The notes under the pieces were generated by a model, which was not told the origin of the DNA, did not search any database, and worked only from the letters and a program-made list of their open reading frames with translations. Both the position numbers and the translations under genes were made by a program. Of a DNA stretch of 46,090 nucleotides, positions 6,066-39,904 are shown piece by piece; the stretch's first letter is position 1, and every line of letters begins with the position of its first letter. The stretch comes from an uncultured Geobacteraceae bacterium (GTDB taxonomy: Bacteria > Desulfobacterota > Desulfuromonadia > Geobacterales > Pseudopelobacteraceae), in NCBI GenBank assembly GCA_903862245.1, contig CAIOXL010000059.1, positions 1 through 46,090 of the forward strand, written 5' to 3'.

Positions 6066-7262
6066 ATGAAGATCGTATATATCGACGACAAACCTGAAAT
6101 GCGCACACTATTGCACCGTTTCCTCACCGCCTGGGGATACGACGCTGTCGGTGCGGCTGACGGCGAAAACGGCTGGGAGCTGATCCGCACCGAACGTCCG
6201 GACATCGTCATTACCGACTGGATGATGCCGGAACTGGACGGGGTCAGCTTGTGCCGCCGCATCCGCTCTTCCGACATGCCGAACTACATTTACATCATAC
6301 TCCTTACCGCCCGCAACGTGACCGACGACCTGGTAACCGGCCTGGAGGCGGGAGCCGACGATTTTGTCAGCAAACCGTTTAACAAGCAGGAACTCAAAGC
6401 GCGCATCAACGCCGCCGCCCGCATCATCTCCCTGGAGCGCGCCCTGGAGGAGAAGAACCGCCAACTCAAGGAAACCTACGACATCATCAAAGAGGATCTT
6501 GAGGCGGCGGCCAGAATACAGCGAAGCCTGATTCCCCAGAAGATAGAGCAGTTTGGCGGAATAACTTTTGACTGGCTGTTCTGCCCTTCCCAGTTTGTGG
6601 CGGGCGACATTTTCAACATCCTGCGCATCGATGAGCATGCACTCGCGTTTTACCTGCTGGATGTGAGCGGCCACGGCATACCGGCAGCGCTGTTGTCCAC
6701 CACCCTCAGCCGGGTACTGACACCGTCGCCCAACTTTTCCGGGCCGATCCGCCGCCCGCTGGCAACCCCCCCCTTCTACAGTATTACCGCGCCGCGCGAC
6801 GTCGCGGCAGAGCTCAACGGGCGGTTCATGAGCGAAGGGGCTCACACCGAATATTTCACCATGGTGTACGGAACAATCGACATCGGTTCCGGAAGCGGCA
6901 CCCTGACCCAGGCCGGCCACCCCTCTCCAATCCACCAGGCTGCCGATGGCACGGTCCGGCTGATCGGCGACGGGGGCTTCCCGGTCGGCATGATACCGGA
7001 CGCCGAATATGATGAACACCCCTTCACCATTAAAGCCGGAGAGCGTCTGTTTATCTATTCCGACGGCATCACCGAATGTCGCGGGCCCGATGACACCATG
7101 TTCGGCATCGACCGGCTGCTGACAATAATCCGCGACGGCTACCGGTTGCCGCTGCGCGACCTGATGGCCGGCATCGAACGGGAACTGGCCCGGTTCCGTG
7201 GCGAAGCCCGGTTTGATGATGATATTTCGCTGCTGGCACTGGAACAAAGGAGGGGAGCATGA
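6066..7262 (+). CDS. Response regulator with PP2C-type (RsbU/SpoIIE-like) serine phosphatase output
   Basis: A 398-residue cytoplasmic signalling protein. Residues 1-120 are a receiver domain with acidic pair D7-D8, phosphoacceptor D51 (in TDWMMP), T81 and K103 (in SKPF). A coiled-coil linker (about 118-165, ending in DLEAAARIQRSLIPQ) joins it to a PP2C/SpoIIE phosphatase domain with the metal-binding segments AGDIFN, LLDVSGHGIPAALL, YSDGITE and FDDDISLL all present, so it should be active. Known relatives dephosphorylate STAS antagonists when their receiver is phosphorylated. The natural substrate here is the STAS protein encoded two genes downstream. A C8 tract occurs at 6766-6773. It overlaps the next gene by four bases. 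Confidence 0.92.
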   Translation: MKIVYIDDKPEMRTLLHRFLTAWGYDAVGAADGENGWELIRTERPDIVITDWMMPELDGVSLCRRIRSSDMPNYIYIILLTARNVTDDLVTGLEAGADDFVSKPFNKQELKARINAAARIISLERALEEKNRQLKETYDIIKEDLEAAARIQRSLIPQKIEQFGGITFDWLFCPSQFVAGDIFNILRIDEHALAFYLLDVSGHGIPAALLSTTLSRVLTPSPNFSGPIRRPLATPPFYSITAPRDVAAELNGRFMSEGAHTEYFTMVYGTIDIGSGSGTLTQAGHPSPIHQAADGTVRLIGDGGFPVGMIPDAEYDEHPFTIKAGERLFIYSDGITECRGPDDTMFGIDRLLTIIRDGYRLPLRDLMAGIERELARFRGEARFDDDISLLALEQRRGA

Positions 7263-8443
7263 AGGCCATGATTCTGGGAGCCGGCAAGGGCACCCGCGTC
7301 CGTCCCGTAACCTATACCGTACCAAAACCGATGATCAGTCTGGCTGGTAAACCGGTTCTGGAGTTTATCGTCGAGCACCTAGTTGCACAAGGGTTCAGCC
7401 AGATTGTCATAAACACCAGTTACATGGCGGATACGATCGAGGGCTACTTCCGCGATGGTTCCCGTTTCGGAGCAGACATCGCCTATTCCTTCGAAGGGAA
7501 GCTGGTGGATGGTGAACTGCAGGGCGAGGCGATCGGTTCTGCCGGTGGAATGAAAAAAGTTCAGGATTTTTCCGGTTTTTTTGATGACACGTTTGCGGTA
7601 TTATGCGGTGATGCCGTGATCGACGTTGATCTGCGCGCCGCCCTGGAGTTTCATCGAAGCAGGGGAGCGGTGGCAACCATTATCCTCAAGGAGGTGGAAC
7701 CGGACGAGGTATCGAGTTACGGCATCGTTCAACTGGGAGATGACGGCCGGATAGAGCGCTTCCAGGAAAAACCGACCCCGGAAGAAGCGGTCTCCCGGGT
7801 TGCCAATACCGGTATTTACCTGTTCGAGCCGGAAGTATTTTCTTTCATCCCTTCCGGTGTAGAATATGATATCGGCTCCCAGCTCTTTCCGGCCCTGGTG
7901 GCGGCCGGCGCGCCGCTGTACGGTATTGCACTCCCGTTTACCTGGCTCGATATCGGTAACGTACGTTCCTGGTGGGATGCCACCCGCTCTGTAGTTTCCG
8001 GAGAACTGGCCGGTTTCAAGCTGCCGGGGAGAGAGTTGCGTCCCGGTATATTCTGCGGCCTGAACTGCTCCATAGACTTCGATGCGGTGGAAATCGCGCC
8101 TCCGGTTCTGATCGGCGGCAGTGTCAGTGTCGGTGCCGGCGCCCGCATTATCGGCCCTGCCGTCATCGGTCCCGGCTCCGTGATTGAACCGGGCGCGGAC
8201 ATATCCGGCTGCATCATCGACAGCTACACCAGGGTCGGCGGGGTGGCCACGCTGGAGGACAAAATTATTTTTGGCAACCGCTGTATTTCGCCCGACGGCG
8301 TTTCAATCAGGATAGCAGACCATGACATCGGCTGGATTCTGGGTGATGCGCGGGAGCAGGGACCGCCCAACCCCGTTAATGAAACGTTGCAGGAACTGGC
8401 GAATGAGCTGCGGGATAAAAATGGGCCGCAGGTATTAATTTAA
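7259..8443 (+). CDS. NDP-sugar pyrophosphorylase (mannose-1-phosphate guanylyltransferase-like)
   Basis: A 394-residue sugar-1-phosphate nucleotidyltransferase with a left-handed beta-helix tail. The start shows the activation signature (GAGKGTRVRP, then VPKPM and AGKPVLE) and a GDAVIDVD metal-site segment near 117. The N-terminal catalytic domain covers about 1-235; hexapeptide repeats (PPVLIGGSVSVGAG, IIGPAVIGPGSVIEPG) cover about 260-345. It makes an activated sugar for the transferases. The GDP-mannose assignment is supported by the mannose-6-phosphate-isomerase-type cupin encoded nearby at 8834, but glucose or another sugar cannot be excluded. Its start overlaps the phosphatase stop, so the two are probably translated together. 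Confidence 0.85.
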   Translation: MKAMILGAGKGTRVRPVTYTVPKPMISLAGKPVLEFIVEHLVAQGFSQIVINTSYMADTIEGYFRDGSRFGADIAYSFEGKLVDGELQGEAIGSAGGMKKVQDFSGFFDDTFAVLCGDAVIDVDLRAALEFHRSRGAVATIILKEVEPDEVSSYGIVQLGDDGRIERFQEKPTPEEAVSRVANTGIYLFEPEVFSFIPSGVEYDIGSQLFPALVAAGAPLYGIALPFTWLDIGNVRSWWDATRSVVSGELAGFKLPGRELRPGIFCGLNCSIDFDAVEIAPPVLIGGSVSVGAGARIIGPAVIGPGSVIEPGADISGCIIDSYTRVGGVATLEDKIIFGNRCISPDGVSIRIADHDIGWILGDAREQGPPNPVNETLQELANELRDKNGPQVLI

Positions 8444-8484
8444 CCCGTTACGGGTATCAAGAGGAATCATAGGGAGGAACCAGC

Positions 8485-8820
8485 ATGTCAGTCAAGGTGC
8501 AGCATGAAGCAGCAATAACGGTGATAACCGTTGCGGGGCGCTTTGACGCTCTGATGGCAAAAGAGTTTAAAAACTGCATCGCCGATCTGACCGACGGCCA
8601 TCGGACCTTGATCGCCCTGGATATGGCGGCGGTCAATTTTATCGACAGTTCCGGGTTGGGATCTTTGGTGGGCGCCCTGAAGGGAATTTCCAAGGAGAAG
8701 GGTGAAATCAGGATAGCGGGGCTATCACCGGAAGTACGGACGATCTTTGAACTGACACGATTGCACCGGATTTTTGATATCTACGAAAACATTGAAACCG
8801 CCTGTGCAAGTTTCGGGTGA
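8485..8820 (+). CDS. STAS-domain anti-sigma factor antagonist (SpoIIAA/RsbV-like)
   Basis: A 111-residue single STAS domain. The phosphorylation site motif IDSSGLGS is intact at D54-S55-S56-G57, as in SpoIIAA and RsbV, and the length is normal. In the known partner-switch logic the unphosphorylated form binds a HATPase kinase partner, phosphorylation releases it, and a PP2C phosphatase resets it. All three components are encoded here: the phosphatase at 6066 and the kinase at 9211. A strong ribosome binding site (AGGGAGG, 8471-8477) precedes the ATG. The last residues are followed after 13 bases by the cupin gene. It may also control a polysaccharide protein directly, as STAS protein SypA does in Vibrio fischeri. 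Confidence 0.93.
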   Translation: MSVKVQHEAAITVITVAGRFDALMAKEFKNCIADLTDGHRTLIALDMAAVNFIDSSGLGSLVGALKGISKEKGEIRIAGLSPEVRTIFELTRLHRIFDIYENIETACASFG

Positions 8821-8833
8821 CCCTGGAGGATAT

Positions 8834-9205
8834 ATGGAGCGGGGAGAACGGCCGTGGGGCACTTACACGGTGCTGGATGAAAGCAGCAATTACAAGATCA
8901 AGCGCATCGAGGTGCTCCCGGGCCAACGTCTGTCGTTGCAGAAGCACCATCATCGCAGCGAACACTGGATCGTGGTTTCAGGGACAGCCAAGGTAACCTG
9001 CGGGGACAAGGTGTTCCAGGTCAACGTCAATGAATCCACCTATATTCCTATCGGCAACCGGCATCGACTGGAAAATCCGGGTAAGATCGCACTGGTGATC
9101 ATTGAAGTTCAGAATGGCGAATATCTGGGCGAGGATGACATCGTCCGCTTTGACGATGATTATCACCGTTGTGATACCTCCCCGGACGTTTCTCCAGCAG
9201 GATAA
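8834..9205 (+). CDS. Cupin, mannose-6-phosphate isomerase type II C-terminal-like
   Basis: A 123-residue cupin equivalent to the stand-alone isomerase domain found at the C-terminus of bifunctional ManC/AlgA proteins. It opens with RPWGTYTVLDE, carries the metal-binding QKHHHRSEHW motif and the PxGNRHRLENPG motif, and ends soon after the EVQNGEYLGEDDIVRFDDDY family signature. It would interconvert fructose-6-phosphate and mannose-6-phosphate, feeding GDP-mannose synthesis. The ATG at 8834 is chosen because GGAGG at 8825-8829 sits just upstream and the family motif starts there; a longer in-frame start at 8774 would overlap the STAS gene. In ManC the pyrophosphorylase and isomerase are fused; here they are separate genes with the STAS gene between them. 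Confidence 0.85.
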   Translation: MERGERPWGTYTVLDESSNYKIKRIEVLPGQRLSLQKHHHRSEHWIVVSGTAKVTCGDKVFQVNVNESTYIPIGNRHRLENPGKIALVIIEVQNGEYLGEDDIVRFDDDYHRCDTSPDVSPAG

Positions 9206-9210
9206 GGGAT

Positions 9211-9621
9211 ATGCGTAATTACTTGATTGAACTTCCTGCAGTCATCGAATCGCTGCGTATTGCGGCCCCCTTCACCGAAGCTGTTTTGAGGGAGCTGCCG
9301 GATATGCCGGAGCGCGAACGTCTGCGGCACGATCTCGCCCTGGTCTCCAGTGAAGCTCTGACCAATGCTCTCAACCACGGGAAAAATGCGGGTTCCCCGG
9401 TCCGCCTCACCTATGCCCTTGATTCAGACGGAATTATGATCACCGTTACCGACCGGGGCAGCGGCTTTGATCCGGACTCGGTCAGTCAACCGGATTTTGA
9501 CAAACGCCCGGAAGGGGGATACGGCATCTACATCATGAAAACGATCATGGATGACGTCCGGTATGAAAAGGGCATTGACGGCAACAATCTGATACTTACC
9601 AAAAAGTGGGCGGTGAATTGA
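9211..9621 (+). CDS. Anti-sigma-factor-type serine/threonine kinase (HATPase_c, RsbW/SpoIIAB-like)
   Basis: A 136-residue GHKL-fold ATPase. The N-box is present (SSEALTNALNHG near 49-60), as are the G1 box (TDRGSGFDP) and the G2 box (GGYGIYIMKTIMDD). There is no His-phosphotransfer domain, so it is of the RsbW/SpoIIAB class that phosphorylates a STAS antagonist on serine and sequesters a partner protein. No sigma factor gene lies in the window, so its output partner may be elsewhere or may not be a sigma factor. A ribosome binding site (AAGGGA) lies just before the ATG. It is sandwiched between sugar-nucleotide and export genes of the same operon. Confidence 0.9.
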   Translation: MRNYLIELPAVIESLRIAAPFTEAVLRELPDMPERERLRHDLALVSSEALTNALNHGKNAGSPVRLTYALDSDGIMITVTDRGSGFDPDSVSQPDFDKRPEGGYGIYIMKTIMDDVRYEKGIDGNNLILTKKWAVN

Positions 9622-9622
9622 C

Positions 9623-10636
9623 ATGATTCCGGGGTATAGAGCAAGGATATTCACGCTGGTTTTCGCCTGCATCGCGCTGCTCTCAGGGTGCGCAACTGGG
9701 CCGCAACCGCTCCCGCCAGGTTTCGTTATCGAACGGGATGTGAAACCGGTCGAATCCGCTTCCTCTGAAATAATGCGGATCTTTGAAGCCGGGCTCAACA
9801 AGGAATATCTTCTTGGCCCCGGTGATGTGGTGGAGATACTGGCCCCCTCATTGCCCGAAATTGCAGGCGAGCAGACGGTCAGTCCGGACGGGAGCATGAC
9901 CCTCTACCCTTCGGGTGAGCTAAAGGTGACCGGGAAAACCCGCACGGAAGTTGAAGCAGTTATCAGGGAATCGCTCCGGCACTATTTCGATACACCGGCT
10001 TTTACTCTGCGCATCAAGTCGTTCGAAAACAATCTGGTGCATGTGCTGGGGCGGGTAGCGATACCCGGCACGGTCAAGTTCCGTGGCAAACCGAACCTTC
10101 TGGAAGCCCTTTCCCGCGCCGGCGTCTTCTCCAGCGGCGGGCAGACCCGTCCACCATCCAGTTGCGCCATCATCCGGGGGAAAGATCAGCTGCTCTGGGT
10201 TTCTCTTGATGAAATGCTGCGGGGCGCCTCTTCCGGGCGCAACCTGGAACTGGCCGGAAACGACATTATTTATATTCCCGAGGCTGACGAGGCCAACGTG
10301 TATGTCTTTGGCGAAGTCAACAAACCGGGCGCGTTTGATGTCGGCAGCGTCAAAACGCTCCTGAACGCCATTGCACAGGCCGGCGGACCGACGGAAAATG
10401 CGGTTACCGACAGTGTCATGCTGGTTCGCAACAGAGGCATCGATGCCGGTGAGCCGATTAAAATCAGCCTGGACAGCTTTGTAGATAAAACGGACTTCTC
10501 CAAAAACGTTGTACTGGCCAAAAACGACATAATTTTCGTTCCCCGCAGAGGGATAGCGGGTCTGAACTATTACCTGCGGATGATAAACCCCTTCACCCAA
10601 TTATTGATCACCGGCTACACCCTGAGCAGAATATGA
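9623..10636 (+). CDS. Outer-membrane polysaccharide export lipoprotein (Wza/GumB-type OPX)
   Basis: A 337-residue precursor with a lipoprotein signal peptide (lipobox LLSGC, Cys23). A Poly_export domain (about 45-140: LLGPGDVVEI, then VSPDGSMTLYPSGELKVTGKTR) is followed by SLBB-type domains (VHVLGRVAIPGTVKF near 137; VYVFGEVNKPGAFDVG near 227). Proteins of this family form the periplasm-spanning and outer-membrane channel for capsule or EPS. The C-terminus (YYLRMINPFTQLLITGYTLSRI) is amphipathic, consistent with outer-membrane insertion. One base separates it from the kinase gene; its stop overlaps the next ATG. Confidence 0.92.
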   Translation: MIPGYRARIFTLVFACIALLSGCATGPQPLPPGFVIERDVKPVESASSEIMRIFEAGLNKEYLLGPGDVVEILAPSLPEIAGEQTVSPDGSMTLYPSGELKVTGKTRTEVEAVIRESLRHYFDTPAFTLRIKSFENNLVHVLGRVAIPGTVKFRGKPNLLEALSRAGVFSSGGQTRPPSSCAIIRGKDQLLWVSLDEMLRGASSGRNLELAGNDIIYIPEADEANVYVFGEVNKPGAFDVGSVKTLLNAIAQAGGPTENAVTDSVMLVRNRGIDAGEPIKISLDSFVDKTDFSKNVVLAKNDIIFVPRRGIAGLNYYLRMINPFTQLLITGYTLSRI

Positions 10637-12807
10637 CGAGAGAGCCATCCGTTAAGCAGCCAAAGCGCATTTTCAGCAAGCCGTTCAACCCGATCGGCGC
10701 CATCATTGAATATCTGCATATCGTGGTCGCCATCACGCTGATCGGCACAATTCTGACCGTTCCCTTCGTCATCCTCAAGAAAAAGCCTAAATACGGGACT
10801 GAGGGAATCATCATGATTAATCCCTACATGCCCAAGATTCTTTACCGGGTTGAGGATAGTAACTTTATCCATTCCTTTGAAGACTGGATGCGTACCCAGG
10901 TTAAGGTAATCACCAGTTATCCGGTGCTGGAATGGGCCATAAAGGATTATGAGGCACAGGGATTCAAGTGGCGGCTTCAGGGTGAATCTTCGCTGTCAGC
11001 GGTCAACCGGCTTAACGGCCGTATCAAGGTGGTGCAGATCCGGGACACCCAGCTCATCACCATTTCTACGGAGAGCCTGCGCAGCGACGGCATGGCGGAA
11101 ATTATCAACAGCGTCATCAAGGGGTATATCAACTCCATCGATTCATATACCCACACTCAGGACAGTTACAAGCTGGACGTACTGGGGAAAGAACGGCAGA
11201 AAGTCCAGAAAGAACTGGATGAGGGGTACCGGAAGCTTGAGGAGATCTCCCAGCAATACGGTACTGCCATAACCGAGGAGAAAAATTTATACATCTACTT
11301 CGAGTCGCTTATGGACCTGAAGAAAACTTATAACAAGATGGTTGCCGACCGGATCACGGCTGACAGCCGCATGAAGGCTCTGAATGAAAAGAGTGGCGTC
11401 CTGAAGGGGATGCCGCTTTCCGGACTGGTGGCCGACCGGGTTGACGCGGGACTCGGCATGTCCAGCCTGATAGTCCAGATCAGCACCCGTATTCAGGAGG
11501 CCAAGGAGCAGATGGTAGGACTGACCGAAGATAACCCGCGTCAGATTCTGCTCAAACGCCGCCTGCAGGAATTGGAAGGGCAGGTTGCCCGCCTGCAGGA
11601 GTGGACCGCAAAAAATCAGGATTTGGTCGTGCGGGGCAAACTTCTGGATGACAATCAGCTGGCGATTGAAAATTCCAGGGTTGACTACCGGACATCAAAA
11701 GACGCTGAAAAGCTGTTGCTGAAAGAGCTGGACCGCGCCCAGCAGGAGATTTTGAAATACAACTCCGCCGTGCTGCACGCCCAGACCAAACGTCAGGAAA
11801 TCCAGAGGCTGATGGAAAGTCTGACCAGGATAAATGAGCGTACCGACCAGATCCAGATGGAGTTTGCCTCGCCGGGACGTATCACGGTTACCGCCTGGGC
11901 CCAGAAACCGGAGCATCCCAATGTGGACCCGCGCGGCAAACTGGTGCCGATCTGCTTCCTCATATCGTTGCTGGCCGGGGTTGGTGTAGCCCTGGGGCGC
12001 GAAATGAGCGACAGCCGCATCAAGCGACCAGCCGATGTGGAAAAACTGCTCGGATTCCCGCTGACCGGTTTTCTGCTGCGCCCCGCAGAGGAAAAAATTC
12101 CGCTGGACGACCTGTACTCCCTGCATAAACGCCGCCCCCGCTCCTTCATGACGCAACAACTGGCCGAGATCGTCGTAAAGATGGATCGGGAACGCTTGGA
12201 GCACGGCTCAAAGGTCTTCGCCTTCACCGGACTTGGTGACGGCTGCGGCGTCACCATGCTGGCCATGAATCTTCTGGCCATGAGTTCAGTGCCGAGAGAC
12301 CGCAGACTCTACATCGACCTGAACAGCCGCGCCCCATCCGGCAGCAGTGAGCCGTTGAAAAGCATCCTAAGAGCCGCCCGGGAGGCCAATCTTCCCAATG
12401 GCTTCATCAATGGCGTCAGTGACGAATTCCCGTTTGTATTTTACCCCAGCGCCAGCGACCCGAACGGAGGGTTTGCGTATTCGTACGAAGACCTGAAGGT
12501 GCTTATCGAAGCGCTGAAAGAGTCCTTCGACATGATTGTACTCGATCTCCCTCCGATCCTGCTTTCAGCAGATACCCAGGCTCTTGTCAGCATTGCCGAC
12601 GTAACGGTCCTGACCGCCCTGGCACGCCATTCCCTCTGGGGAGAACTGATGAGTTCCGTGTCAATGTTGGATGATAGCGGCGTCAAGGTGATTTCGGTAG
12701 TGTTGAACCGGGTCGGTTTTGTGCGTGGCGGGTACCTCCGTAAAAAACTTCAAGCCTACTTGACCCTGGGACGGGAAAAGAAACGCCGCCTGTTCGGGAA
12801 CGGGTAA
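10633..12807 (+). CDS. Wzz/GNVR chain-length protein fused to a degenerate tyrosine-kinase-type ATPase domain
   Basis: A 724-residue inner-membrane polysaccharide co-polymerase. An N-terminal cytoplasmic tail and TM1 (about 32-52) lead to a large periplasmic domain with long coiled coils (about 175-410). The PNVDPRG-preceded TM2 (about 437-455) leads to a cytoplasmic MinD/BY-kinase-like domain (about 480-724). That domain keeps Walker A' (LYIDLN) and Walker B (MIVLDLPPIL), but the P-loop reads GDGCGVT, with Val540 where the conserved Lys is expected, and the C-terminus (LTLGREKKRRLFGNG) has no tyrosine cluster. It is therefore probably a pseudokinase that retains the chain-length role. It overlaps the export lipoprotein gene and sits directly before the polymerase. 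Confidence 0.9.
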   Translation: MTREPSVKQPKRIFSKPFNPIGAIIEYLHIVVAITLIGTILTVPFVILKKKPKYGTEGIIMINPYMPKILYRVEDSNFIHSFEDWMRTQVKVITSYPVLEWAIKDYEAQGFKWRLQGESSLSAVNRLNGRIKVVQIRDTQLITISTESLRSDGMAEIINSVIKGYINSIDSYTHTQDSYKLDVLGKERQKVQKELDEGYRKLEEISQQYGTAITEEKNLYIYFESLMDLKKTYNKMVADRITADSRMKALNEKSGVLKGMPLSGLVADRVDAGLGMSSLIVQISTRIQEAKEQMVGLTEDNPRQILLKRRLQELEGQVARLQEWTAKNQDLVVRGKLLDDNQLAIENSRVDYRTSKDAEKLLLKELDRAQQEILKYNSAVLHAQTKRQEIQRLMESLTRINERTDQIQMEFASPGRITVTAWAQKPEHPNVDPRGKLVPICFLISLLAGVGVALGREMSDSRIKRPADVEKLLGFPLTGFLLRPAEEKIPLDDLYSLHKRRPRSFMTQQLAEIVVKMDRERLEHGSKVFAFTGLGDGCGVTMLAMNLLAMSSVPRDRRLYIDLNSRAPSGSSEPLKSILRAAREANLPNGFINGVSDEFPFVFYPSASDPNGGFAYSYEDLKVLIEALKESFDMIVLDLPPILLSADTQALVSIADVTVLTALARHSLWGELMSSVSMLDDSGVKVISVVLNRVGFVRGGYLRKKLQAYLTLGREKKRRLFGNG

Positions 12808-12814
12808 TACCCGG

Positions 12815-14173
12815 ATGGACAAGATCATCCTCCTCTTCATGCTGGCATCCATCGCCCTGCTCATGTACAAGGAGCCGAAGGAGCTATTCCTCTACTTCTT
12901 CCTGCCGGTACTAACGATGATGCCAGTTTATTACCAGACCAAGGTTGTATCCGGCATACCGGAAATCAGTTTCTGGAGTGCCGTGCTGCTGCCAATCGCG
13001 TTCGTCTGGATTTTCAACAAACATGGCGAAGGGTACCGCTTTTCTCCCCTGGATCTTCTCATCCTCCTGCATCTCGTTCTCGTTTTTTCCGGTGAATGGC
13101 ACAATACTACCTACAAGGAAGCCCAGAAGGTGTTCTACAACGACCTGACCATTCGTCTGCTCCCCTGTATTATGGCGCGGGCCTGGTTCATGGACTCCGA
13201 CAGTCGCCTGAAAATGTTCAAGATTATTGTTGTGTGCGGCGCGATAGTAGCTGCATTCCAGATCATCGAATTCCGTTTATGGTTCAACGTGTTTGACGAC
13301 ATCCTGCGGAAAATCTGGCCCCATTCCGTCCCCTGGGGTGGCGGCATGAGACGTGGCGGATTGAAGCGGGCGGCCGGCCCCTTCGGACACCCCATCTGCT
13401 CCGGTTATTTCTTTACCATGTTCGTACCACTGGCGATCTGGCTCTGGAAAAACGATTATTTCGAGTTAAAAAAACATGGCCGCTGGCTGTTTCTGCTCTG
13501 CGTGATGGGCGGGATCACATCCATCTCCCGTGCTCCCATCGCCGGGATTGTCATGGGATTTATCATCATCTGGTACGGCTGGGCTAAAAACAAAAGTGTG
13601 GCGACCATGCTCCTGGTCAGCTTCCTCATCATTACTTCCATCCTGGTGGTACCCAAACTTGTCGCCTACATGAGCGCAAGCCGGGCCACCGCAGAAACAG
13701 AGGATCAGCGCAACGCTGCCTACCGAAAGGAACTGCTGGAAAACTACCAGGAGGTCATTGCCGAAAAACCGCTGTTCGGCTGGGGGCGCTTCGGCGTACC
13801 GGTGGTCAAGGGGCAGGACTCGGTTGACAATGAATATCTGGTGATTGTTCTGGCATCGGGCTATATGTCGCTCTACGCCTACCTGGCGTGCATACTCTGG
13901 GTGCTGGTCAGGCTGACTCTGTTCGCGGTTTTCAGTGATCCCTCCTCACGGGAGGGGCGCCTGGCCTGGTGTCTTCTGGCGGGGCTCATAACCGCCGCAT
14001 TCACCCAGACTACGGTGTATGCCGGCACTCAGACGGTGCAGTTCTTCTATATGCTCATGGGTTTTTCGGAAGCTCTGGTACAACTGAAACATTTTGAACA
14101 CGAGGGGCAGCCCGCGCTTGCTCGGACACTTGGAGGAGATGAGTATGGCTATACCTTTTCTCGGACGTTGTAG
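12815..14173 (+). CDS. Wzy-type O-antigen/EPS polymerase
   Basis: A 452-residue very hydrophobic protein with about ten or more predicted membrane helices and a large periplasmic loop. The region GGLKRAAGPFGHPICSGYFF (about 186-205) and the following FVPLAIWL resemble the Wzy_C/O-antigen-ligase family. The loop near 290-330 carries conserved charged residues (ENYQEVIAEKPLFGWGRFG), also typical. It would join lipid-linked repeat units in the periplasm, working with the Wzz-like protein encoded just before it. Polymerase fits better than ligase because of the Wzx, Wzz and OPX partners. Last gene of the plus operon starting at 6066; 82 bases separate it from a convergent gene, without a strong terminator hairpin. 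Confidence 0.85.
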   Translation: MDKIILLFMLASIALLMYKEPKELFLYFFLPVLTMMPVYYQTKVVSGIPEISFWSAVLLPIAFVWIFNKHGEGYRFSPLDLLILLHLVLVFSGEWHNTTYKEAQKVFYNDLTIRLLPCIMARAWFMDSDSRLKMFKIIVVCGAIVAAFQIIEFRLWFNVFDDILRKIWPHSVPWGGGMRRGGLKRAAGPFGHPICSGYFFTMFVPLAIWLWKNDYFELKKHGRWLFLLCVMGGITSISRAPIAGIVMGFIIIWYGWAKNKSVATMLLVSFLIITSILVVPKLVAYMSASRATAETEDQRNAAYRKELLENYQEVIAEKPLFGWGRFGVPVVKGQDSVDNEYLVIVLASGYMSLYAYLACILWVLVRLTLFAVFSDPSSREGRLAWCLLAGLITAAFTQTTVYAGTQTVQFFYMLMGFSEALVQLKHFEHEGQPALARTLGGDEYGYTFSRTL

Positions 14174-32639: not shown

Positions 32640-34085
32640 CTATCCGGTACGGGGGAATGCTGCAGCGGCCTTCAGCAGTACGGCCAGATCGCCGCTGAAG
32701 GTTCTGGTTACCTGGTGGAAGTTTTCCCTGGCAAGCCGCTCTTCGGCACTTTCCGGCAGGTCTCCTTCCACCTCCCAGATATGAAACAGGCCGCGCGCCG
32801 TATCCAGGCCAAACAGCGACTCGCCGTCACTTGAATCCACTTCCTCCGCACGGCTTGCCCAGGCGCCCACCAGCGCCAGATCTCCCGCCAGGACCGCGAA
32901 AAGCCCGGGCCAGCGGCGCAGGAGGAGCGGCCCGAAACTGAATTGCCGCAACGTGAACGGCAGACGGGGTTCTTCACCGGTCAGTTTTTTCAGCCGCCTG
33001 TTGCCGAGACGACGCTCCGACTGGCACATCCCCGGCACCACCATGGAGAGCGCCAGCAGCGGCAAACCGAGCGGCAGCAGCACCAGCAGCAGAGCGGCAG
33101 CCGGCAGCAGACTCCCCGCGCCGCCGGTCGCTTCTGCCGTTACGGCGGCCATATCCCCCAGTATAAAGGCATCCGGCGCGGCAACGGCAGCACCGCTGTT
33201 CAGATTGACCAGAAATTTTCCGCGAGCCGCCATGCCGTTCAGTTCAGTGTGCGGGCCGGTGACGGTACCGGACATGACCAGGCTGTCGCAGATCAGATCC
33301 GTATTATTCACCAGGCAGTAGCTGGAGATGACGGCATTGGGACCGATCTGCCCGGAACCGGTTATCCGGCAGTGACTGCCGATCAGAACCGGCGCTACCA
33401 GGCGGATGCCGGATGCAATTTCCGTGTGGTCGCCAATCCAGAGCCCGGCGCCGGCCGGAGCGGCTGAGATGCGGTACTCTGGCAAGCGGCCTGCGAGAAT
33501 GTCCCGCTGAGCCTGAAGAAACCGGTTCAGGTCGGTGATCAGACCCGCCTCGGGGGGCGTTGCCGCAGCGGCAGAGAACAGCCCCTTCAGGCGTACTATC
33601 GTCATCAGCTCTTCAACGGTTTCAAAATTGTCGTCCTGCGCCACGCCGCGCAGCGTGGCGGCAGCGGCGGCAAAAACGGCACCACCCGGACCGCCGCACA
33701 GTGCCGCACCATCTTCGACAGCAGCCGATTCGGCCAGAAAGCGGGAAAGCTCAGCCGAAACAGCCAGGTTGCCGGGGAGGCAGACCACCCCCCCCCGGAT
33801 GCCGTGCAGGGCAGCCCGCAGCATGCGCTGAAGCCCCCCCTGATCCCGTACAGAGGAGATCGCCAGCCGGCATCCCCACCGTTCGCCGTTACCGAAATGA
33901 TGGGCAACCTCTTCAGAACGGTCATCGCACAGCAGCGTCACATCGCGGATTCCGGCGGTGACAAGCTGCTCGACGAGATGTTCAACGATCGGTTTGCCGG
34001 CCATGGGGAGCAGGAAATCGGGGCAGAGCGAACGGAGCGGAGCGAGGGATTCGCCCCGCTGGAACGGAAAGATCAGCGCTTTCAT
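32640..34085 (-). CDS. Fusion of degenerate nucleotidyltransferase, beta-helix and pseudo-phosphoglycosyl transferase
   Basis: 481 residues in three parts. Residues 1-175 resemble a sugar nucleotidyltransferase (LLPMAGKPIVEHLVEQL), but the G-x-G-T-R loop is replaced by FQRGESLAPL and the PKP motif reads CPDF, so catalysis is unlikely. Residues about 206-285 are left-handed beta-helix repeats. A hydrophobic helix (about 325-351) leads to a region like the end of a phosphoglycosyl transferase: WPGLFAVLAGDLALVG and GDLAVLLKAAAAFP match WNVFKGDMSLVG and DIVLLLKTIPAVLF of the active enzyme encoded at 35629. The catalytic Asp-Glu pair is absent. A run of nine C lies at 33788-33796. It may be a scaffold or regulator. 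Overlaps the next gene by four bases. Confidence 0.75.
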   Translation of the reverse strand: MKALIFPFQRGESLAPLRSLCPDFLLPMAGKPIVEHLVEQLVTAGIRDVTLLCDDRSEEVAHHFGNGERWGCRLAISSVRDQGGLQRMLRAALHGIRGGVVCLPGNLAVSAELSRFLAESAAVEDGAALCGGPGGAVFAAAAATLRGVAQDDNFETVEELMTIVRLKGLFSAAAATPPEAGLITDLNRFLQAQRDILAGRLPEYRISAAPAGAGLWIGDHTEIASGIRLVAPVLIGSHCRITGSGQIGPNAVISSYCLVNNTDLICDSLVMSGTVTGPHTELNGMAARGKFLVNLNSGAAVAAPDAFILGDMAAVTAEATGGAGSLLPAAALLLVLLPLGLPLLALSMVVPGMCQSERRLGNRRLKKLTGEEPRLPFTLRQFSFGPLLLRRWPGLFAVLAGDLALVGAWASRAEEVDSSDGESLFGLDTARGLFHIWEVEGDLPESAEERLARENFHQVTRTFSGDLAVLLKAAAAFPRTG

Positions 34086-35629
34086 GGTTCCCGCCGATCG
34101 GCAAGAACCGATTGGTCATCCGTAATCGTGAACAGGCTGTCAAGGCGGGTCAGACGGAGCAGCTGCCGTACCGCCGGGGTCGGCGCGCAAAGCGTGCACG
34201 TTTTGCCCTGTTTGTGCACATGGCGCTGGATGCGGTGGAATGCCACCAGACCGCTGCTGTCGGAAAATTCCAGAGCGGCGAGATCCATGATGCAGTCCCT
34301 GTTGTCAAGGGCTGGCAACAGCTCGTCAAAGGGAAAGTTTTTTATGGCCAGGGCATCCAGCCTCCCCTGTAATGTAATCACTGCGGTGCCGTTCCGCAGA
34401 ACGGAGATCCGGTACGGCGCTCCTTCGGCGCTGCGGTCCAGACGGATCCGGCTGACGGCCTGGTTTCTGTCGGCGAACGTGCGCTCCTGAAACAGGTCGG
34501 CAATGCGGTTGAAGCGGAAAAACTCCTGAACATGGACATTCAGCGACACCAGCTTGAGTTTGCCGCCGCCCGATTCCTGCTCCTGCCGCCACAAACGCAC
34601 CAGAAGGCCAAGGCCGGAGGAGTCAACCATGTCAACCTTGCCAAAATCCAGAATCAGGTGACTGCTGTATTTATACGCACTGCCCACAGCGGGAGCCAGT
34701 TCCTTCACCGCCAGGGCATCCAGTCTGGCCGGCAGCCTGATGGTGTAGATATCCTCCTCAGTATGCAAAACTACCAAGCCGCCGGCCTGGGCAGCCAGAA
34801 GTTCCGGAGTGTACCGCTGCCGGGCGGCGCGGTAGGCCCGGATGGCGGGCCAGGCGTGGAGGGCAAACTTGACCATGCCGACCGCGTAGCGTTTCCAGAG
34901 CCGGCGCGGTTCCATCAGGATGCGATAGATCCATTCCAGTCCGGCTTTCTGGACCCAGTGCGGCGCGCGCGACACTGTGCCGATGATGAACTCGAAGGTG
35001 CCGCCGATGCCGATGGAAACCGGCACCTTCAGGCGCGGCGCGTTGCGGGCAAACCAGAGTTCCTGCTTGGGATTGCCGAAGGCGATCAGCAGGACGTCCG
35101 GCCGGGCGGCGTTGATTTCATCCACAATAGCTGTATCCTCTGCCTCAAAATTCACGAGGTGTTCCCCCTCGGTGTACACGAAGGGCGAACTGACACCGGC
35201 AACGATCAGGCCCGGATTGCGCTGCACAAGGAGGTCGGCGGCACGCTGCCCCACATCGCCGCGCCCCCCCAGAAAATAGAGGGAAGCACCGCGTCCGGCA
35301 GCAGCGGCGGCCAGGGCCGGCACCATATCGGCACCGGTTACCCGCTCCTTGAGCGGAGCGCCCAGCAGGCGGGACATCCAGACCACCGGCATGCCGTCGG
35401 CGGTCACCATGTCGGCCCGGCGCAGAATGTCCAGCAGTTCGGGGTGGTTAATCCCCCCCTGCTCCCAGGAAAGGGTGTTGACGATGAAATCCACATTGAC
35501 CGTCGCCACCTGGCGCGGCACCCCATCCGTTTTGTACCCTCCGACCAGCGTAAATATTCCCTCGATCGCCTCGGTAAGGGTCAGGTTGTCAACGGGAATG
35601 CCGAGAATAACAACGGTGTCGCGCGGCAT
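34082..35629 (-). CDS. WecG/TagA/CpsF glycosyltransferase (GT26) fused to two STAS domains
   Basis: 515 residues. The GT26 domain (about 5-265) is complete: VATVNVDFIV, the catalytic-type VTADGMP (Asp78), RVTGADMV, FGNPKQELW (185-192), GTFEFIIGTVSRAP and the membrane-associating tail LEWIYRILMEPRRLWKRY. By family it adds the second sugar (for example ManNAc-type) to a lipid-linked acceptor. Two STAS domains follow: about 284-385 with VDSSGLG at 335-341 and about 405-508 with SDSSGLV at 456-462. Both retain the phosphorylatable Ser motif. STAS domains are normally stand-alone partner-switch proteins, so this is an unusual fusion that could put a glycosyltransferase under kinase/phosphatase control. 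It overlaps its neighbours and follows the phosphoglycosyl transferase whose product it should use. Confidence 0.92.
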   Translation of the reverse strand: MPRDTVVILGIPVDNLTLTEAIEGIFTLVGGYKTDGVPRQVATVNVDFIVNTLSWEQGGINHPELLDILRRADMVTADGMPVVWMSRLLGAPLKERVTGADMVPALAAAAAGRGASLYFLGGRGDVGQRAADLLVQRNPGLIVAGVSSPFVYTEGEHLVNFEAEDTAIVDEINAARPDVLLIAFGNPKQELWFARNAPRLKVPVSIGIGGTFEFIIGTVSRAPHWVQKAGLEWIYRILMEPRRLWKRYAVGMVKFALHAWPAIRAYRAARQRYTPELLAAQAGGLVVLHTEEDIYTIRLPARLDALAVKELAPAVGSAYKYSSHLILDFGKVDMVDSSGLGLLVRLWRQEQESGGGKLKLVSLNVHVQEFFRFNRIADLFQERTFADRNQAVSRIRLDRSAEGAPYRISVLRNGTAVITLQGRLDALAIKNFPFDELLPALDNRDCIMDLAALEFSDSSGLVAFHRIQRHVHKQGKTCTLCAPTPAVRQLLRLTRLDSLFTITDDQSVLADRREP

Positions 35630-36351
35630 CAGTAGGCCCCTTTTCCGAACAGGACCGCCGGAATGGTTTTGAGCAGCAGAACGATATCGAACCAGAACGA
35701 GCGGCTTTCGATGTAGCGGGTGTCCAGGCGGACCTGCCCTTTGAAATCGATGTTGCTTCTGCCGCTGACCTGCCAGATGCAGGTGATGCCCGGCAGGGCG
35801 TCCAGACGGCGGCGGTCGTCCAGGGTGTATTCGGCCACCTCTCCCGGAATGGCCGGACGCGGCCCCACCAGCGACATGTCCCCTTTGAACACGTTCCAGA
35901 ACTGGGGCAGTTCATCCAGGGAGGTTCTGCGGATAAACGCGCCTACTCTGGTGATGCGGGGGTCTTTTTTCATCTTGAAGATCACCCCGGCAGCCGATTC
36001 GTTCTGCTCCTTCAGTTTTTCCAGCAGCTTTTCGGCGTTGACCACCATGGAGCGGAACTTGTACATCCTGAACAGCTTGCCCCAGCGGCCGACCCGGTTC
36101 TGGGCGAAAAAAACCGGGCCGGGCGATTCCAGATAAATGAGCAGCGCCAGGGCGGCAAAGAGAGGCGCCAGCATGATCAGCAGCAGGCCGGACAGGAGTA
36201 TGTCCATACCGCGCTTGGTCAATTCCGCCATCCCGACCACCGTCCGCCAGGCGAGACGCTTGTGCAGGAAGTAGAGGCGCGAGCGGAGTCCGCCGTCGGC
36301 ATAGGTGGTATACAGGTTATCAAGCAGCTGCTGGTCTTTCATGACAGGCAT
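35629..36351 (-). CDS. Initiating undecaprenyl-phosphate sugar-1-phosphate transferase (monotopic PGT)
   Basis: 240 residues, the small catalytic-module form without the N-terminal four-helix domain. A re-entrant hydrophobic segment (about 48-72, ILLSGLLLIMLAPLFAALALL) leads into SPGPVFFAQNRVG, then FRMYKFRSM. The catalytic Asp-Glu pair is in RRTSLDELPQFWNVFKGDM, followed by SLVGPRP and the C-terminal LLLKTIPAVLFGKGAY. It would transfer a sugar phosphate to undecaprenyl phosphate and so start the repeat unit. Its stop overlaps the start of the GT26-STAS gene. ATG codons at 36351 and 36342 are both possible. Confidence 0.93.
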   Translation of the reverse strand: MPVMKDQQLLDNLYTTYADGGLRSRLYFLHKRLAWRTVVGMAELTKRGMDILLSGLLLIMLAPLFAALALLIYLESPGPVFFAQNRVGRWGKLFRMYKFRSMVVNAEKLLEKLKEQNESAAGVIFKMKKDPRITRVGAFIRRTSLDELPQFWNVFKGDMSLVGPRPAIPGEVAEYTLDDRRRLDALPGITCIWQVSGRSNIDFKGQVRLDTRYIESRSFWFDIVLLLKTIPAVLFGKGAY

Positions 36352-36366: not shown

Positions 36367-36708
36367 TTATTCATAACAGACTTCGATGCAGTCAAGATAG
36401 GCTTCCAGCAGAGCCACCTGGGCACGCACACCCTGCAGATCTGCGGCTATCGCGGCACTCTCCATGGAGGCTCCGATCCCGGTAATCTCCGGGAAACCAT
36501 AGCAGCCGCCGGAACCCTTCATGCCGTGGGCAATGCTGCGGATCTCTCCGCACGCCGCCCCGTTGGCCAGCTCCCGGATCTGCAGGCACTCCGCCCGTTT
36601 TCCCTCAAGATACTCCGGAATGATATCGCTCAGATCGACATCGCAGACAACCAGATTGCGCGCGTTGTTGCCGACTGTTCTCTGTTCATGCGTGGTGACA
36701 CTGTCCAT
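36367..36708 (-). CDS. Histidine phosphotransfer (Hpt) protein
   Basis: 113 residues from the ATG at 36708. This start is preferred to a GTG at 36726 because AGGGAG lies five bases before it; the GTG overlaps the kinase stop. The protein is helical with the Hpt motif IRSIAHGMKGSGGCYGF; the phospho-accepting His is residue 61 of this reading. It lies between a hybrid kinase with a C-terminal receiver (36726-39401) and the phosphoglycosyl transferase gene, so it should accept phosphate from that receiver. It may pass the phosphate to the receiver-PP2C phosphatase (6066) or the receiver-kinase (19069), both inference. Confidence 0.85.
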   Translation of the reverse strand: MDSVTTHEQRTVGNNARNLVVCDVDLSDIIPEYLEGKRAECLQIRELANGAACGEIRSIAHGMKGSGGCYGFPEITGIGASMESAAIAADLQGVRAQVALLEAYLDCIEVCYE

Positions 36709-36725
36709 AATGGCTCCCTGATCCA

Positions 36726-39401
36726 CTAACTCTGCCCCGTGACGACGGCATATCCGCTGACCACTTCCAGCAGCCTGTCCTTGTGTATCGGTTTCGTCAG
36801 ATGATCGCTGCAGCCGGCGGCCAGGCTTTTCTGGCGATCCTCTTTAAGAGCGTTGGCCGTCAGGGCGATGATCGGCGCCGGGTCGCGCCCGGTTGCCGAT
36901 TCCCAGTCCCGCATCAGGCGGACCGCCGTATAGCCGTCCATGACCGGCATCTCCATGTCCAGCAGGACCAGATCATACCTCCCCTGCTTGACCTTGGCAA
37001 CGGCCTCCTCACCGTTTACGGCGATATCCACCCGGTGATCAGTGTGACGGAAGTAGGCGCTCAGCACCGTGCGGTTATCCTTGTTATCGTCAACCAGTAA
37101 AATGGAGAGCGGCCTGAAGACCCTTCCCTCGTTTTTTTCTTCAGGGTGGTGCTCTGGCGGCGTTTCCGACGGAGCAGCAAAACGGCAGGTGAAAAAGAAA
37201 CAGCTCCCCTCGCCCGGCGTACTTTCCACACCAAGCTCCCCCCCCATCATCTCCACGAGCCGTTTCGATATTGAAAGCCCCAGGCCGGAACCGCCGTACC
37301 TGCGGGTGGTGGAGGTGTCAGACTGGCTGAAACTCTCAAAGATCTTCTGCCGCTTGTCCGGCTGAATCCCGATACCGGTATCGGTAATGGAGAATTTCAC
37401 CAGTATGTTGGTGCCGTCTACCGTAACCGGCTCAACGTTCAGAGTGACACTCCCCTGCTCGGTGAACTTGATCGCGTTACCCACCAGATTGAGCAGAACC
37501 TGCTGCAGCCTGAAAGAATCCCCCACCAGCCAGTCAGGCACACCCGTCGTCAGCGACGAGGTAAGAACCAGCTTCTTCTGCGCTGCCCGCACCGACGCCA
37601 GAGCCGTCAACTGTCCGATACAGTCCGGAAGGTTGAACAGGGCGTCATCCAGCTGCATCATGCCGGCTTCTATTTTGGAAAGGTCAAGAATATCGTCGAT
37701 CAACCCCTGCAGGGTGACGCCGGCCGTCTGGACAACCGCCAGGTATTGCGTCTGTTCACTGTTCAGCGCCGTTTCGGCCAGCAGGTCGGTCATGCCGAGA
37801 ATGGCATTGAGCGGCGTACGGATTTCATGGCTCATACTGGCCAGAAAATCACTCTTGGTCTTGTTGGCCTGGTCAGCTCTGTCGCGTGCCAGCTTTTCAT
37901 TTTCGGCGGCTCTGGTAAGCTCTTCCTGGAGTAGCTTCTGCTCACCGATGTTCTCACTGACCCGCACGAAATGGGTAATGGCTCCGGAATCGTCCCGGAT
38001 CGGTGAGATGGAGATCCGCTCCCACACCAGGCTGCCGTCCTTGTTGCGGTTGTGCACTTCGCCGCGCCACTCTCCGCCGGACAGAATCGTACGCCACATT
38101 TCCTGGTAAAATTCCAGCGGCTGTGCCCCCCCCTTCAGGATGCGGGGATTATGCCCCAGCACTTCCGCCGGGGAGTACCCGGTCAGCTGGCTGAATTTGG
38201 GGTTGACGTATTCGATCGCGCCGCTGCTGTCGGTAATGATAATGGGAACCGGGCTGTTATCCACGGCGGTTGAAAGCTTGCGCAGGGAGCGTTCCATTAT
38301 TTTGTTGAGGGTAATGTCGCGGATCACCCCCACGGAGTGCCATGCGCCGTCAAGCCAGACCGGCGACAGTGACAGGGCGACCGCAATCTCCTGCCCCCCC
38401 TTGCGCAGGGCGAAGCGTTCAAGGGTCTTGCCCAGGGCATTGCCGGTGCCGGTGCGCAGAAACTCCGGGTAGGCGGCATTGAAATCGTCGTGATAACGAT
38501 GCGGGACCAGCAGGTCGTGGAGGTTTTTCCCGAGCACCTCCCCGGGTGAATAGCCGAAAACCTGTTCGGCGGCCGGATTCCAGTAGGTTATGGCGCCCCG
38601 TTCATCCATCATTAAAATGGCGTCGAGGGCCGAATCCGTAATACCCCGCAGCAGTTTTTCATTCCCCTCGGAGGTTTCCTTGGCGATGGTCAGTTCAGTA
38701 ACCCGCTCGGCAATAACCCGCGACATGGTGTTGAAGGCGGCCCCCAGCCGCCCCACATCGTCATCCCCCTCCCGCAGCGGCTGCGGCGCCAGATTGCCGG
38801 CGGCCACATCGAGACTGGCCCTGGTCAGCGAGGTCAGGTGCCGCGTCAGCCAGTAGCCGATCAGCAGCAAGATAAGCGAAGAAAGGACGATCTCCACCGC
38901 CGCGATGCCCATCCCCTGAGTCAGCAGTTTGCCCCGCGCAGAGATGATTTGAGAAACATTCAGACCGAAATGAAGGGTGCCGAGAGGTTGATTGGACAGC
39001 GAAATCGGAACCACAACGTCATAACGCGGCTCCTTTTTTGTCTCGAACAGCGGCAGATCCTTGCTCGGGCTCGGCAGCGCCAGGCCGTCCGGCCAGCCGC
39101 TACTGCCGACAACTTTGCCGGAACGGTCGACAATCACGATATAGTCAACCCCGCCGGCGGAGCGGCTTTCATTGATAATCGCCTGCACCGTAACGTAATC
39201 CCGCTGGGCCAGGGGAGCGGTCAGAGCAGCTTCCAGCACCGGATAATACTGGGCCGCCTGTGAGCGGGCCTGGTTGCTCATGGCGCCGTGCAGCAGCCGC
39301 AGACTGTTGGCGACCATAATCGTCAGCATCAGTATTTCCACACCGATTGCCAGCAGCAGCAGGCGCCCGCGGATGGTATGGCGAAGGGCAATCCTGATCA
39401 T
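36726..39401 (-). CDS. Membrane hybrid sensor histidine kinase (HAMP, two PAS, receiver)
   Basis: 891 residues: TM1 (about 12-35), a periplasmic sensor (36-162), TM2 (about 166-187), HAMP (188-240), PAS1 (about 252-370), PAS2 (about 378-490), a HisKA domain (H525 in ASMSHEIRTP), HATPase (NLVGNAIKF, DTGIGI, GGSGLGLSI) and a receiver (about 765-885, phosphoacceptor D815 in LLDMEMP, K870). Phosphate would run H525 to D815 and on to the Hpt protein encoded directly downstream. The receiver shares a perfect 63-base DNA repeat with the second hybrid kinase (36913-36975 and 42729-42791). The periplasmic domain is short and resembles a single Cache; its ligand is unknown. Confidence 0.93.
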   Translation of the reverse strand: MIRIALRHTIRGRLLLLAIGVEILMLTIMVANSLRLLHGAMSNQARSQAAQYYPVLEAALTAPLAQRDYVTVQAIINESRSAGGVDYIVIVDRSGKVVGSSGWPDGLALPSPSKDLPLFETKKEPRYDVVVPISLSNQPLGTLHFGLNVSQIISARGKLLTQGMGIAAVEIVLSSLILLLIGYWLTRHLTSLTRASLDVAAGNLAPQPLREGDDDVGRLGAAFNTMSRVIAERVTELTIAKETSEGNEKLLRGITDSALDAILMMDERGAITYWNPAAEQVFGYSPGEVLGKNLHDLLVPHRYHDDFNAAYPEFLRTGTGNALGKTLERFALRKGGQEIAVALSLSPVWLDGAWHSVGVIRDITLNKIMERSLRKLSTAVDNSPVPIIITDSSGAIEYVNPKFSQLTGYSPAEVLGHNPRILKGGAQPLEFYQEMWRTILSGGEWRGEVHNRNKDGSLVWERISISPIRDDSGAITHFVRVSENIGEQKLLQEELTRAAENEKLARDRADQANKTKSDFLASMSHEIRTPLNAILGMTDLLAETALNSEQTQYLAVVQTAGVTLQGLIDDILDLSKIEAGMMQLDDALFNLPDCIGQLTALASVRAAQKKLVLTSSLTTGVPDWLVGDSFRLQQVLLNLVGNAIKFTEQGSVTLNVEPVTVDGTNILVKFSITDTGIGIQPDKRQKIFESFSQSDTSTTRRYGGSGLGLSISKRLVEMMGGELGVESTPGEGSCFFFTCRFAAPSETPPEHHPEEKNEGRVFRPLSILLVDDNKDNRTVLSAYFRHTDHRVDIAVNGEEAVAKVKQGRYDLVLLDMEMPVMDGYTAVRLMRDWESATGRDPAPIIALTANALKEDRQKSLAAGCSDHLTKPIHKDRLLEVVSGYAVVTGQS

Positions 39402-39556: not shown

Positions 39557-39904
39557 TTAGCGGCAAACCGGAATCAATAGGGCCAAAGCCTCTTCAACAC
39601 CGGCCATCATCGGGAAGATCCGGTCCATCCTGGTAAGCCGGAAGAGGGTCGTTACCTGTGATCCGGCACCGAAAATCGCGACATTCCCGCTTTCGCCGAC
39701 CGCCTTGAGCAGGGAAATGATACCACCCAGACCACTGCTGTCAACAAACTCCACCTCGCCCAGGTCAAGAGCGATGAGCCGGTGGCCGGCCTCGACCCTT
39801 CCGGCCATGTATTGCTTGAATTCCTGGGTTACCGGCGCGTCCAGACGCCTTTCCAGCGGCCTGACGACCAGAACCCCCCGTTCCTGACGTTCTTCGAATT
39901 GCAT
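39557..39904 (-). CDS. STAS-domain anti-sigma factor antagonist-like protein
   Basis: 115 residues, a single STAS domain with the intact core VEFVDSSGLGG (D55-S56-S57-G58) and the usual RLTRMDRIF region. Length matches SpoIIAA/RsbV proteins. It lies 31 bases after glycogen phosphorylase and 155 bases before a hybrid kinase, so it is probably co-expressed with carbohydrate and signalling genes. It is the fourth STAS domain in the window (with 8485 and two in the GT26 fusion) and may compete for the same kinase (9211) and phosphatase (6066). Confidence 0.92.
   Translation of the reverse strand: MQFEERQERGVLVVRPLERRLDAPVTQEFKQYMAGRVEAGHRLIALDLGEVEFVDSSGLGGIISLLKAVGESGNVAIFGAGSQVTTLFRLTRMDRIFPMMAGVEEALALLIPVCR

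Follow-up and report, generated by a model that had tools for sequence, protein, structure and literature searches.

In the classical partner switches, free STAS proteins of the SpoIIAA/RsbV type control sigma factors together with the SpoIIAB/RsbW kinases and the SpoIIE/RsbU phosphatases. Partner switching that ends on a target other than a sigma factor is already known from SypA/SypE and from SiaABC-SiaD. In Vibrio fischeri, SypA is a STAS protein and SypE is a kinase-receiver-PP2C regulator of the syp polysaccharide locus (PMC4517449, PMC10120452). Among glycosyltransferases of the GT26 family, TagA has a C-terminal appendage that is needed for both activity and membrane binding (PMC6493773). 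Here we describe a gene of an uncultured Geobacteraceae bacterium (GenBank assembly GCA_903862245.1, contig CAIOXL010000059.1) that encodes a GT26 (WecG/TagA/CpsF) glycosyltransferase with two STAS domains at its C-terminal end, and we compare its surroundings with those of its relatives. The stretch of DNA that was analysed, 46,090 nucleotides in length, is referred to as the window. From the gene neighbourhoods and the conserved motifs, we think it fairly likely that an RsbW kinase and a PP2C phosphatase directly control STAS-fused enzymes of this kind.

The GT26-STAS-STAS protein and its acceptor serines

The plus-strand frame across 34082-35629 is interrupted by a stop, and the real gene lies on the minus strand; an earlier note on this DNA had the coordinates right, and the strand is an added detail. 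Pfam analysis of the 515-residue protein found WecG/TagA/CpsF at residues 72-248 (E 1.2e-60; PF03808 score 204.6 bits against a cut-off of 27.4) and STAS in two stretches (E 5.5e-24). An AlphaFold model built with 26 aligned relatives had a mean predicted local distance difference test score (pLDDT) of 87.9 and a predicted template modelling score (pTM) of 0.87. In structure comparisons, modelled residues 3-219 matched TagA/TarA (Z ~26), residues 282-398 matched SpoIIAA from complexes with SpoIIAB (Z ~15), and residues 403-504 matched RsbV from the RsbV/RsbW complex (Z 14.6, root-mean-square deviation 1.8). The Pfam and fold matches thus agree with the earlier description of a complete WecG/TagA/CpsF domain followed by two STAS domains. 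The long helix of residues 241-273 in the model is the C-terminal appendage of the GT26 part, and the first STAS domain (STAS1) is placed directly after it. Both STAS domains have the STAS fold, the LD loop and a D-S-x-G site, and the D-S-S-G motifs are found at residues 336-339 and 457-460, as had been claimed.

Alignment to TagA places its catalytic residues T37, D65, R214 and R221 at T43, D78, R236 and R243 of the window protein (PMC6493773), the two arginines being assigned by our reading of that alignment. Among the relatives, the two arginines never vary, and T43 and D78 are at least 90% conserved. The catalytic residues of the GT26 part are intact, and it is predicted to be a working glycosyltransferase. 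The 2.9-Mb draft genome (G000, contig C59) contains no second GT26 gene, and the same architecture was found in 25 other loci with 36-90% identity. Because this is the only GT26 gene of the genome and its architecture is conserved in the 25 loci, a chance frame, an artefact or an assembly join was ruled out. A plasmid- or virus-borne element was also rejected, as searches of plasmids (E 1e-40) and viral contigs turned up no relative.

The fusion is rare, occurring in 10 of the 395 genomes of the phylum, in 5 of the 141 genomes of the order (all five within one genus) and in 2 of the 369 sampled gammaproteobacterial genomes. A tree built from the GT26 part unites the fused proteins as one group (support 90/60) and places an unfused Parachlamydiales protein (L030) as its sister (support 100/98). 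The clade spans Desulfobacterota, Gammaproteobacteria and others, and the nearest named relatives for the window gene are uncultured Geobacteraceae. In one member (L061, positions 1480-3057, minus strand; genome G159) the GT26 motifs are degenerate, with TADG changed to IPVG and GNPKQELWF to RDPASAAWY, while both STAS sites are retained and a receiver-PP2C-RsbW protein is encoded ~1 kb away. The catalytic motifs are intact in every other full-length member inspected. A Contendobacter GT26-STAS-STAS protein (L015:9962-12064, plus strand) has an extra C-terminal part with a Nudix-box-like motif, GKVRPGEDPLEAARRELREEIGL, recognised by eye. The Omnitrophota loci L032-L034 encode GT26 proteins of 557 residues with an additional membrane-like C-terminal half.

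The phosphoacceptor of SpoIIAA we take to be S58, the first serine of the motif. That of SypA is S56 (PMC10120452), and on these two precedents the acceptor in the window protein would be the first serine of each motif, S337 and S458. This narrows the sites proposed earlier, Ser337/338 and Ser458/459, where serines are indeed present. Conservation of the serines in homologues, which the earlier note had named as a test, held for one of the two sites only. At the Ser458 position of the second STAS domain (STAS2), ~90% of the relatives by weight have serine, and this column ranks third in conservation within the domain, but Ser337 in STAS1 is retained by Geobacteraceae, Desulfobacteraceae and some other groups and is missing elsewhere. 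Since Ser337 varies, a role for both serines is only half supported, and equal weight for the two was rejected because many relatives lack Ser337.

Kinase and phosphatase genes near the fused enzymes

The link of the fused enzyme to kinase and phosphatase genes recurs in differing arrangements. In four gammaproteobacterial loci (L010, L013, L016 and L017), the genes for GT26-STAS-STAS, a receiver-PP2C protein and RsbW are consecutive on one strand with short gaps, and no separate STAS gene adjoins the set. Elsewhere, the RsbW-type kinase and PP2C genes are linked at distances of 1-25 kb. A protein in which receiver, PP2C and RsbW are fused is encoded within ~1.5 kb of GT26-STAS in f37 (G208, G255) and f65 (G159). 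A set of PP2C, STAS and RsbW genes is located 15-25 kb away on the same contig in Geobacteraceae (G002, G004), Desulfobacteraceae (G005, G006), f38 (G233, G277) and Contendobacter (G013). The genomes G008, G011, G014 and G015 contain no strong match to PF13581 besides the linked RsbW; by simple arithmetic, the chance that a random position in a 5-Mb genome falls within 3 kb is ~0.001. No such module was found near the plain GT26 loci of the same genus (G857, G862 and G884). The contigs of L004, L009, L011, L012 and L060 are too short for linkage to be judged. Thus the co-occurrence with RsbW and PP2C genes that the earlier note had put forward for checking is seen in several lineages and is absent near L014, L056, the Halieaceae loci and L018.

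The nearest unfused GT26 (L030) adjoins a 695-residue protein (L030:7211-9298, minus strand) whose single chain unites a receiver, a PP2C domain, an RsbW kinase and a STAS domain, with a phosphoglycosyl transferase gene also beside the GT26 gene. In the Omnitrophota locus L033, PP2C, STAS and RsbW genes lie a few kb downstream of a GT26 gene without STAS. In the Halieaceae group (L019-L027), the GT26-STAS-STAS genes without the canonical site (e.g. L019:14049-16034) have a response regulator gene of the sigma-54 type nearby, and another protein encoded there resembles, by eye, a heme-NO-binding (HNOB) domain.

A STAS domain is also joined to a second enzyme of polysaccharide assembly. The initiating phosphoglycosyl transferase of L016 and G008 carries a STAS domain with the IDSSG motif fused to its N-terminus, and in L016 its gene is ~2.3 kb from the kinase gene. 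The STAS-phosphoglycosyl transferase was found in all five genomes of the L010-L017 group (G008, G009, G011, G014 and G015), each time with the first serine intact, and in none of the 21 other genomes searched. Among the 369 gammaproteobacterial genomes, the two that carry GT26-STAS are the same two that carry the STAS-phosphoglycosyl transferase. This second fused enzyme is the strongest independent support for a use of STAS domains on early polysaccharide-assembly enzymes.

In the window itself, Pfam confirmed the kinase (9211), the receiver-gated phosphatase (6066) and the two further STAS proteins (8485 and 39557) that had been assigned before (Table 1). The genes from 6066 to 14173 encode, in order, the receiver-PP2C phosphatase, a sugar nucleotidyltransferase, the free STAS protein, a mannose-phosphate isomerase-type cupin, the RsbW-type kinase and Wza/Wzc/Wzy. 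None of the window proteins scanned had Sigma70 region 2. The STAS gene at 39557-39904 sits between the genes for glycogen phosphorylase and the hybrid histidine kinase, and it is also present in L003 and L005. The protein encoded at 32640-34085 contains hexapeptide repeats, its C-terminal match to phosphoglycosyl transferase is weak and degenerate, and a gene of this type adjoins GT26-STAS in several lineages.

Table 1. Features of the window, and STAS-fused phosphoglycosyl transferases of other loci (locus given before the positions).
Feature	Positions	Strand	Basis
Receiver-PP2C (SpoIIE) phosphatase	6066-7262	plus	Response_reg E 5e-29, SpoIIE E 7e-40
Stand-alone STAS protein, anti-sigma-antagonist-like, IDSSGLG	8485-8820	plus	Pfam
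RsbW/SpoIIAB-like serine kinase	9211-9621	plus	HATPase_c_2 E 9.5e-24; matches RsbW 6m36, SpoIIAB 1th8
Wza, Wzc, Wzy (export, chain-length, polymerase/ligase), directly after kinase gene	9623-14173	plus	
Nucleotidyltransferase-like protein with degenerate phosphoglycosyl-transferase-like tail, overlaps GT26-STAS end	32640-34085	minus	
GT26 (WecG/TagA/CpsF)-STAS-STAS coding sequence, 515 residues	34082-35629	minus	Open reading frame, Pfam, AlphaFold model, structure matches
STAS2 (residues 403-505), acceptor-position Ser458 at codon 34256-34258	34115-34423	minus	RsbV match
STAS1 (residues 283-398), acceptor-position Ser337 at codon 34619-34621	34436-34783	minus	SpoIIAA match
GT26 catalytic part and C-terminal appendage helix (residues 1-273)	34811-35629	minus	TagA match, alignment to residue 258
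Initiating phosphoglycosyl transferase (Bac_transf), overlaps GT26-STAS start	35629-36351	minus	Pfam E 1.3e-67
Hpt phosphotransfer protein	36367-36726	minus	Pfam Hpt
Hybrid histidine kinase (HAMP, PAS, HisKA, HATPase, REC), candidate input	36726-39401	minus	
Stand-alone STAS protein, adjoins glycogen phosphorylase gene	39557-39904	minus	Pfam
STAS-phosphoglycosyl transferase	L016:10340-11338	minus	Bac_transf E 2.9e-67, STAS E 6e-13
STAS-phosphoglycosyl transferase (further copies in L091-L093)	L084:2043-3038	plus	

Candidate control of the enzyme and its alternatives

In the control that we propose, the GT26 enzyme would act early in the building of an exported polysaccharide and add a sugar to its lipid-linked precursor. 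The RsbW-type kinase would phosphorylate the first serine of D-S-S-G, mainly Ser458 of STAS2 but in some lineages the serine of STAS1 as well, and the receiver-gated PP2C phosphatase would take the phosphate off. Phosphorylation, or the binding and release of the kinase, may alter the docking of the appendage helix on the active site and the membrane, and sugar transfer would go down or up. A phosphorelay from the hybrid kinase and the Hpt protein beside GT26-STAS to the receiver of the phosphatase is also conceivable. That the enzyme is phosphorylated, how this affects activity and with which polarity, and what part the appendage plays are all inferred. With less confidence, the unphosphorylated enzyme is expected to be the active state, because unphosphorylated SypA promotes biofilm (PMC10120452). 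More tentatively, the direct targets of the switch might be the two enzymes that open lipid-linked assembly, the phosphoglycosyl transferase and GT26, each of which bears STAS in some bacteria, and entry would then be gated by serine phosphorylation of these enzymes without a sigma factor, with free STAS proteins such as SypA acting in trans. In the undecaprenyl-phosphate pathway, a half-finished product occupies the limiting lipid carrier. If the proposal is true, entry into this pathway would be gated by partner switching, and the early membrane steps of polysaccharide assembly would be a concrete candidate for the target of SypA-type switches.

Several observations weigh against direct control of the enzyme. 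The PP2C/STAS/RsbW operon of the window is 25 kb from GT26-STAS and has its own STAS protein; because of this distance and the free STAS gene adjoining the kinase, the link between kinase and enzyme is weak from the window alone. In most lineages outside the gammaproteobacteria, the kinase likewise has its own adjacent stand-alone STAS. The STAS1 serine is often lost. L056 (G392) has a canonical STAS1 site and yet no module within ~20 kb, and L014 (G276) has no module on its 52-kb contig. When site and module were compared on the tree, there were 2-3 independent pairs and the sign test was not significant; the associations are not all independent, because the GT26-STAS fusions are one clade. 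The linkage could also mirror a general clustering of polysaccharide genes. The proposal of the earlier note, that partner switching acts on the enzyme and not on transcription, is partly supported. The linkage in relatives, the conserved Ser458, the second fused enzyme and the lack of a sigma-factor gene among the window genes scanned speak for it, but the window itself does not show the enzyme as the target.

Three other explanations were weighed. The target of the kinase and phosphatase could be the stand-alone STAS protein 8485, in the way that SypE acts on SypA, and the STAS domains of the enzyme would then be docking or assembly modules, binding for example the phosphoglycosyl transferase or a free STAS, and would not be phospho-switched. 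It would fit that the PP2C/STAS/RsbW trio makes a full set even without the enzyme, both in the window and in most Desulfobacterota, that STAS1 often has no serine, and that in Vibrio the output component is SypA itself (PMC10120452). However, the four gammaproteobacterial loci pair kinase and phosphatase with the fused enzyme and have no free STAS beside them, and the place of Ser458 among the most conserved STAS2 positions is unexpected for a pure docking domain, and we consider this explanation rather unlikely. It seems improbable that the enzyme is a decoy whose STAS domains bind RsbW and free some other target, a STAS protein or a sigma factor, while sugar transfer goes unregulated. Classical STAS proteins do act through RsbW sequestration, and an extracytoplasmic function (ECF) sigma gene is located ~1 kb after the kinase in L010, but no such gene was seen after the kinase in L016, nor any sigma-factor gene among the window genes scanned. 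The degenerate member L061 makes a binding role for STAS possible, because its STAS part must act without sugar transfer while both sites and the nearby PP2C-RsbW persist; against this, L061 is alone among the full-length members inspected in having lost its catalytic motifs, and a second biosynthetic enzyme is likewise fused to STAS.

It is also possible, with a very small probability in our view, that the STAS pair has been inherited as a structural extension and has no link to the kinase today, and that the proximity comes from partner-switch genes being in many polysaccharide clusters. Halieaceae and Victivallales retain the extension without the canonical site and without a module nearby, and in Omnitrophota L033 the module is near a GT26 that has no STAS. 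Yet the arrangement differs among lineages, from consecutive genes through a fused kinase-phosphatase to a distant trio, and therefore the link seems to have been re-formed and not just inherited. In addition, the plain GT26 loci of the same genus have no module near, and site loss and module absence coincide: the Halieaceae clade, L018 and L014 have neither the canonical LD and D-S site nor a module nearby. Direct control of the fused enzyme by RsbW and PP2C is the explanation that we favour.

Relation to described systems

The earlier note knew of no described example, which is almost but not entirely correct. A literature search that reached few subscription journals returned no description of a GT26-STAS or STAS-phosphoglycosyl transferase fusion. 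For the wider idea there are precedents in all4160 of Anabaena (PMC8256260), SypA/SypE, whose action lies below transcription (PMC10120452), and SiaABC-SiaD (PMC7647112, PMC8457831). According to its description, all4160 is a STAS-fused glycosyltransferase required for the heterocyst envelope polysaccharide (PMC8256260); its STAS is N-terminal, and that description gives no kinase or phosphatase link.

The locus resembles SypA/SypE in that partner-switch genes are part of a polysaccharide locus, control would lie below transcription, the first serine would be the acceptor and the system is receiver-gated. In gene content, the window STAS 8485 with 6066 and 9211 heads the Wza/Wzc/Wzy genes. On the other hand, SypA is free-standing, whereas here STAS is fused to a glycosyltransferase. 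SypE is one kinase-receiver-PP2C protein, whereas the kinase and PP2C of the window are separate; receiver-PP2C-RsbW fusions are present in some relatives and not in the window. In SiaABCD of Pseudomonas aeruginosa, a kinase/PP2C pair sets the phosphorylation of a STAS-like protein and thereby controls the activity and oligomeric state of SiaD (PMC7647112, PMC8457831), but SiaC (DUF1987, Thr68) regulates a diguanylate cyclase in trans, while STAS here would act in cis on a sugar transferase. TagA/TarA of Thermoanaerobacter italicus has the same GT26 fold and catalytic residues but no STAS domains, and its proposed regulation is membrane association. With SpoIIAA/RsbV the window protein shares the STAS fold, LD loop and D-S-S-G motif, and the kinase and phosphatase families are the same, although those systems end on sigma factors. 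Here STAS is covalently joined to a glycosyltransferase, and some gammaproteobacteria carry it on the initiating phosphoglycosyl transferase as well, with kinase and phosphatase beside the fused enzymes.

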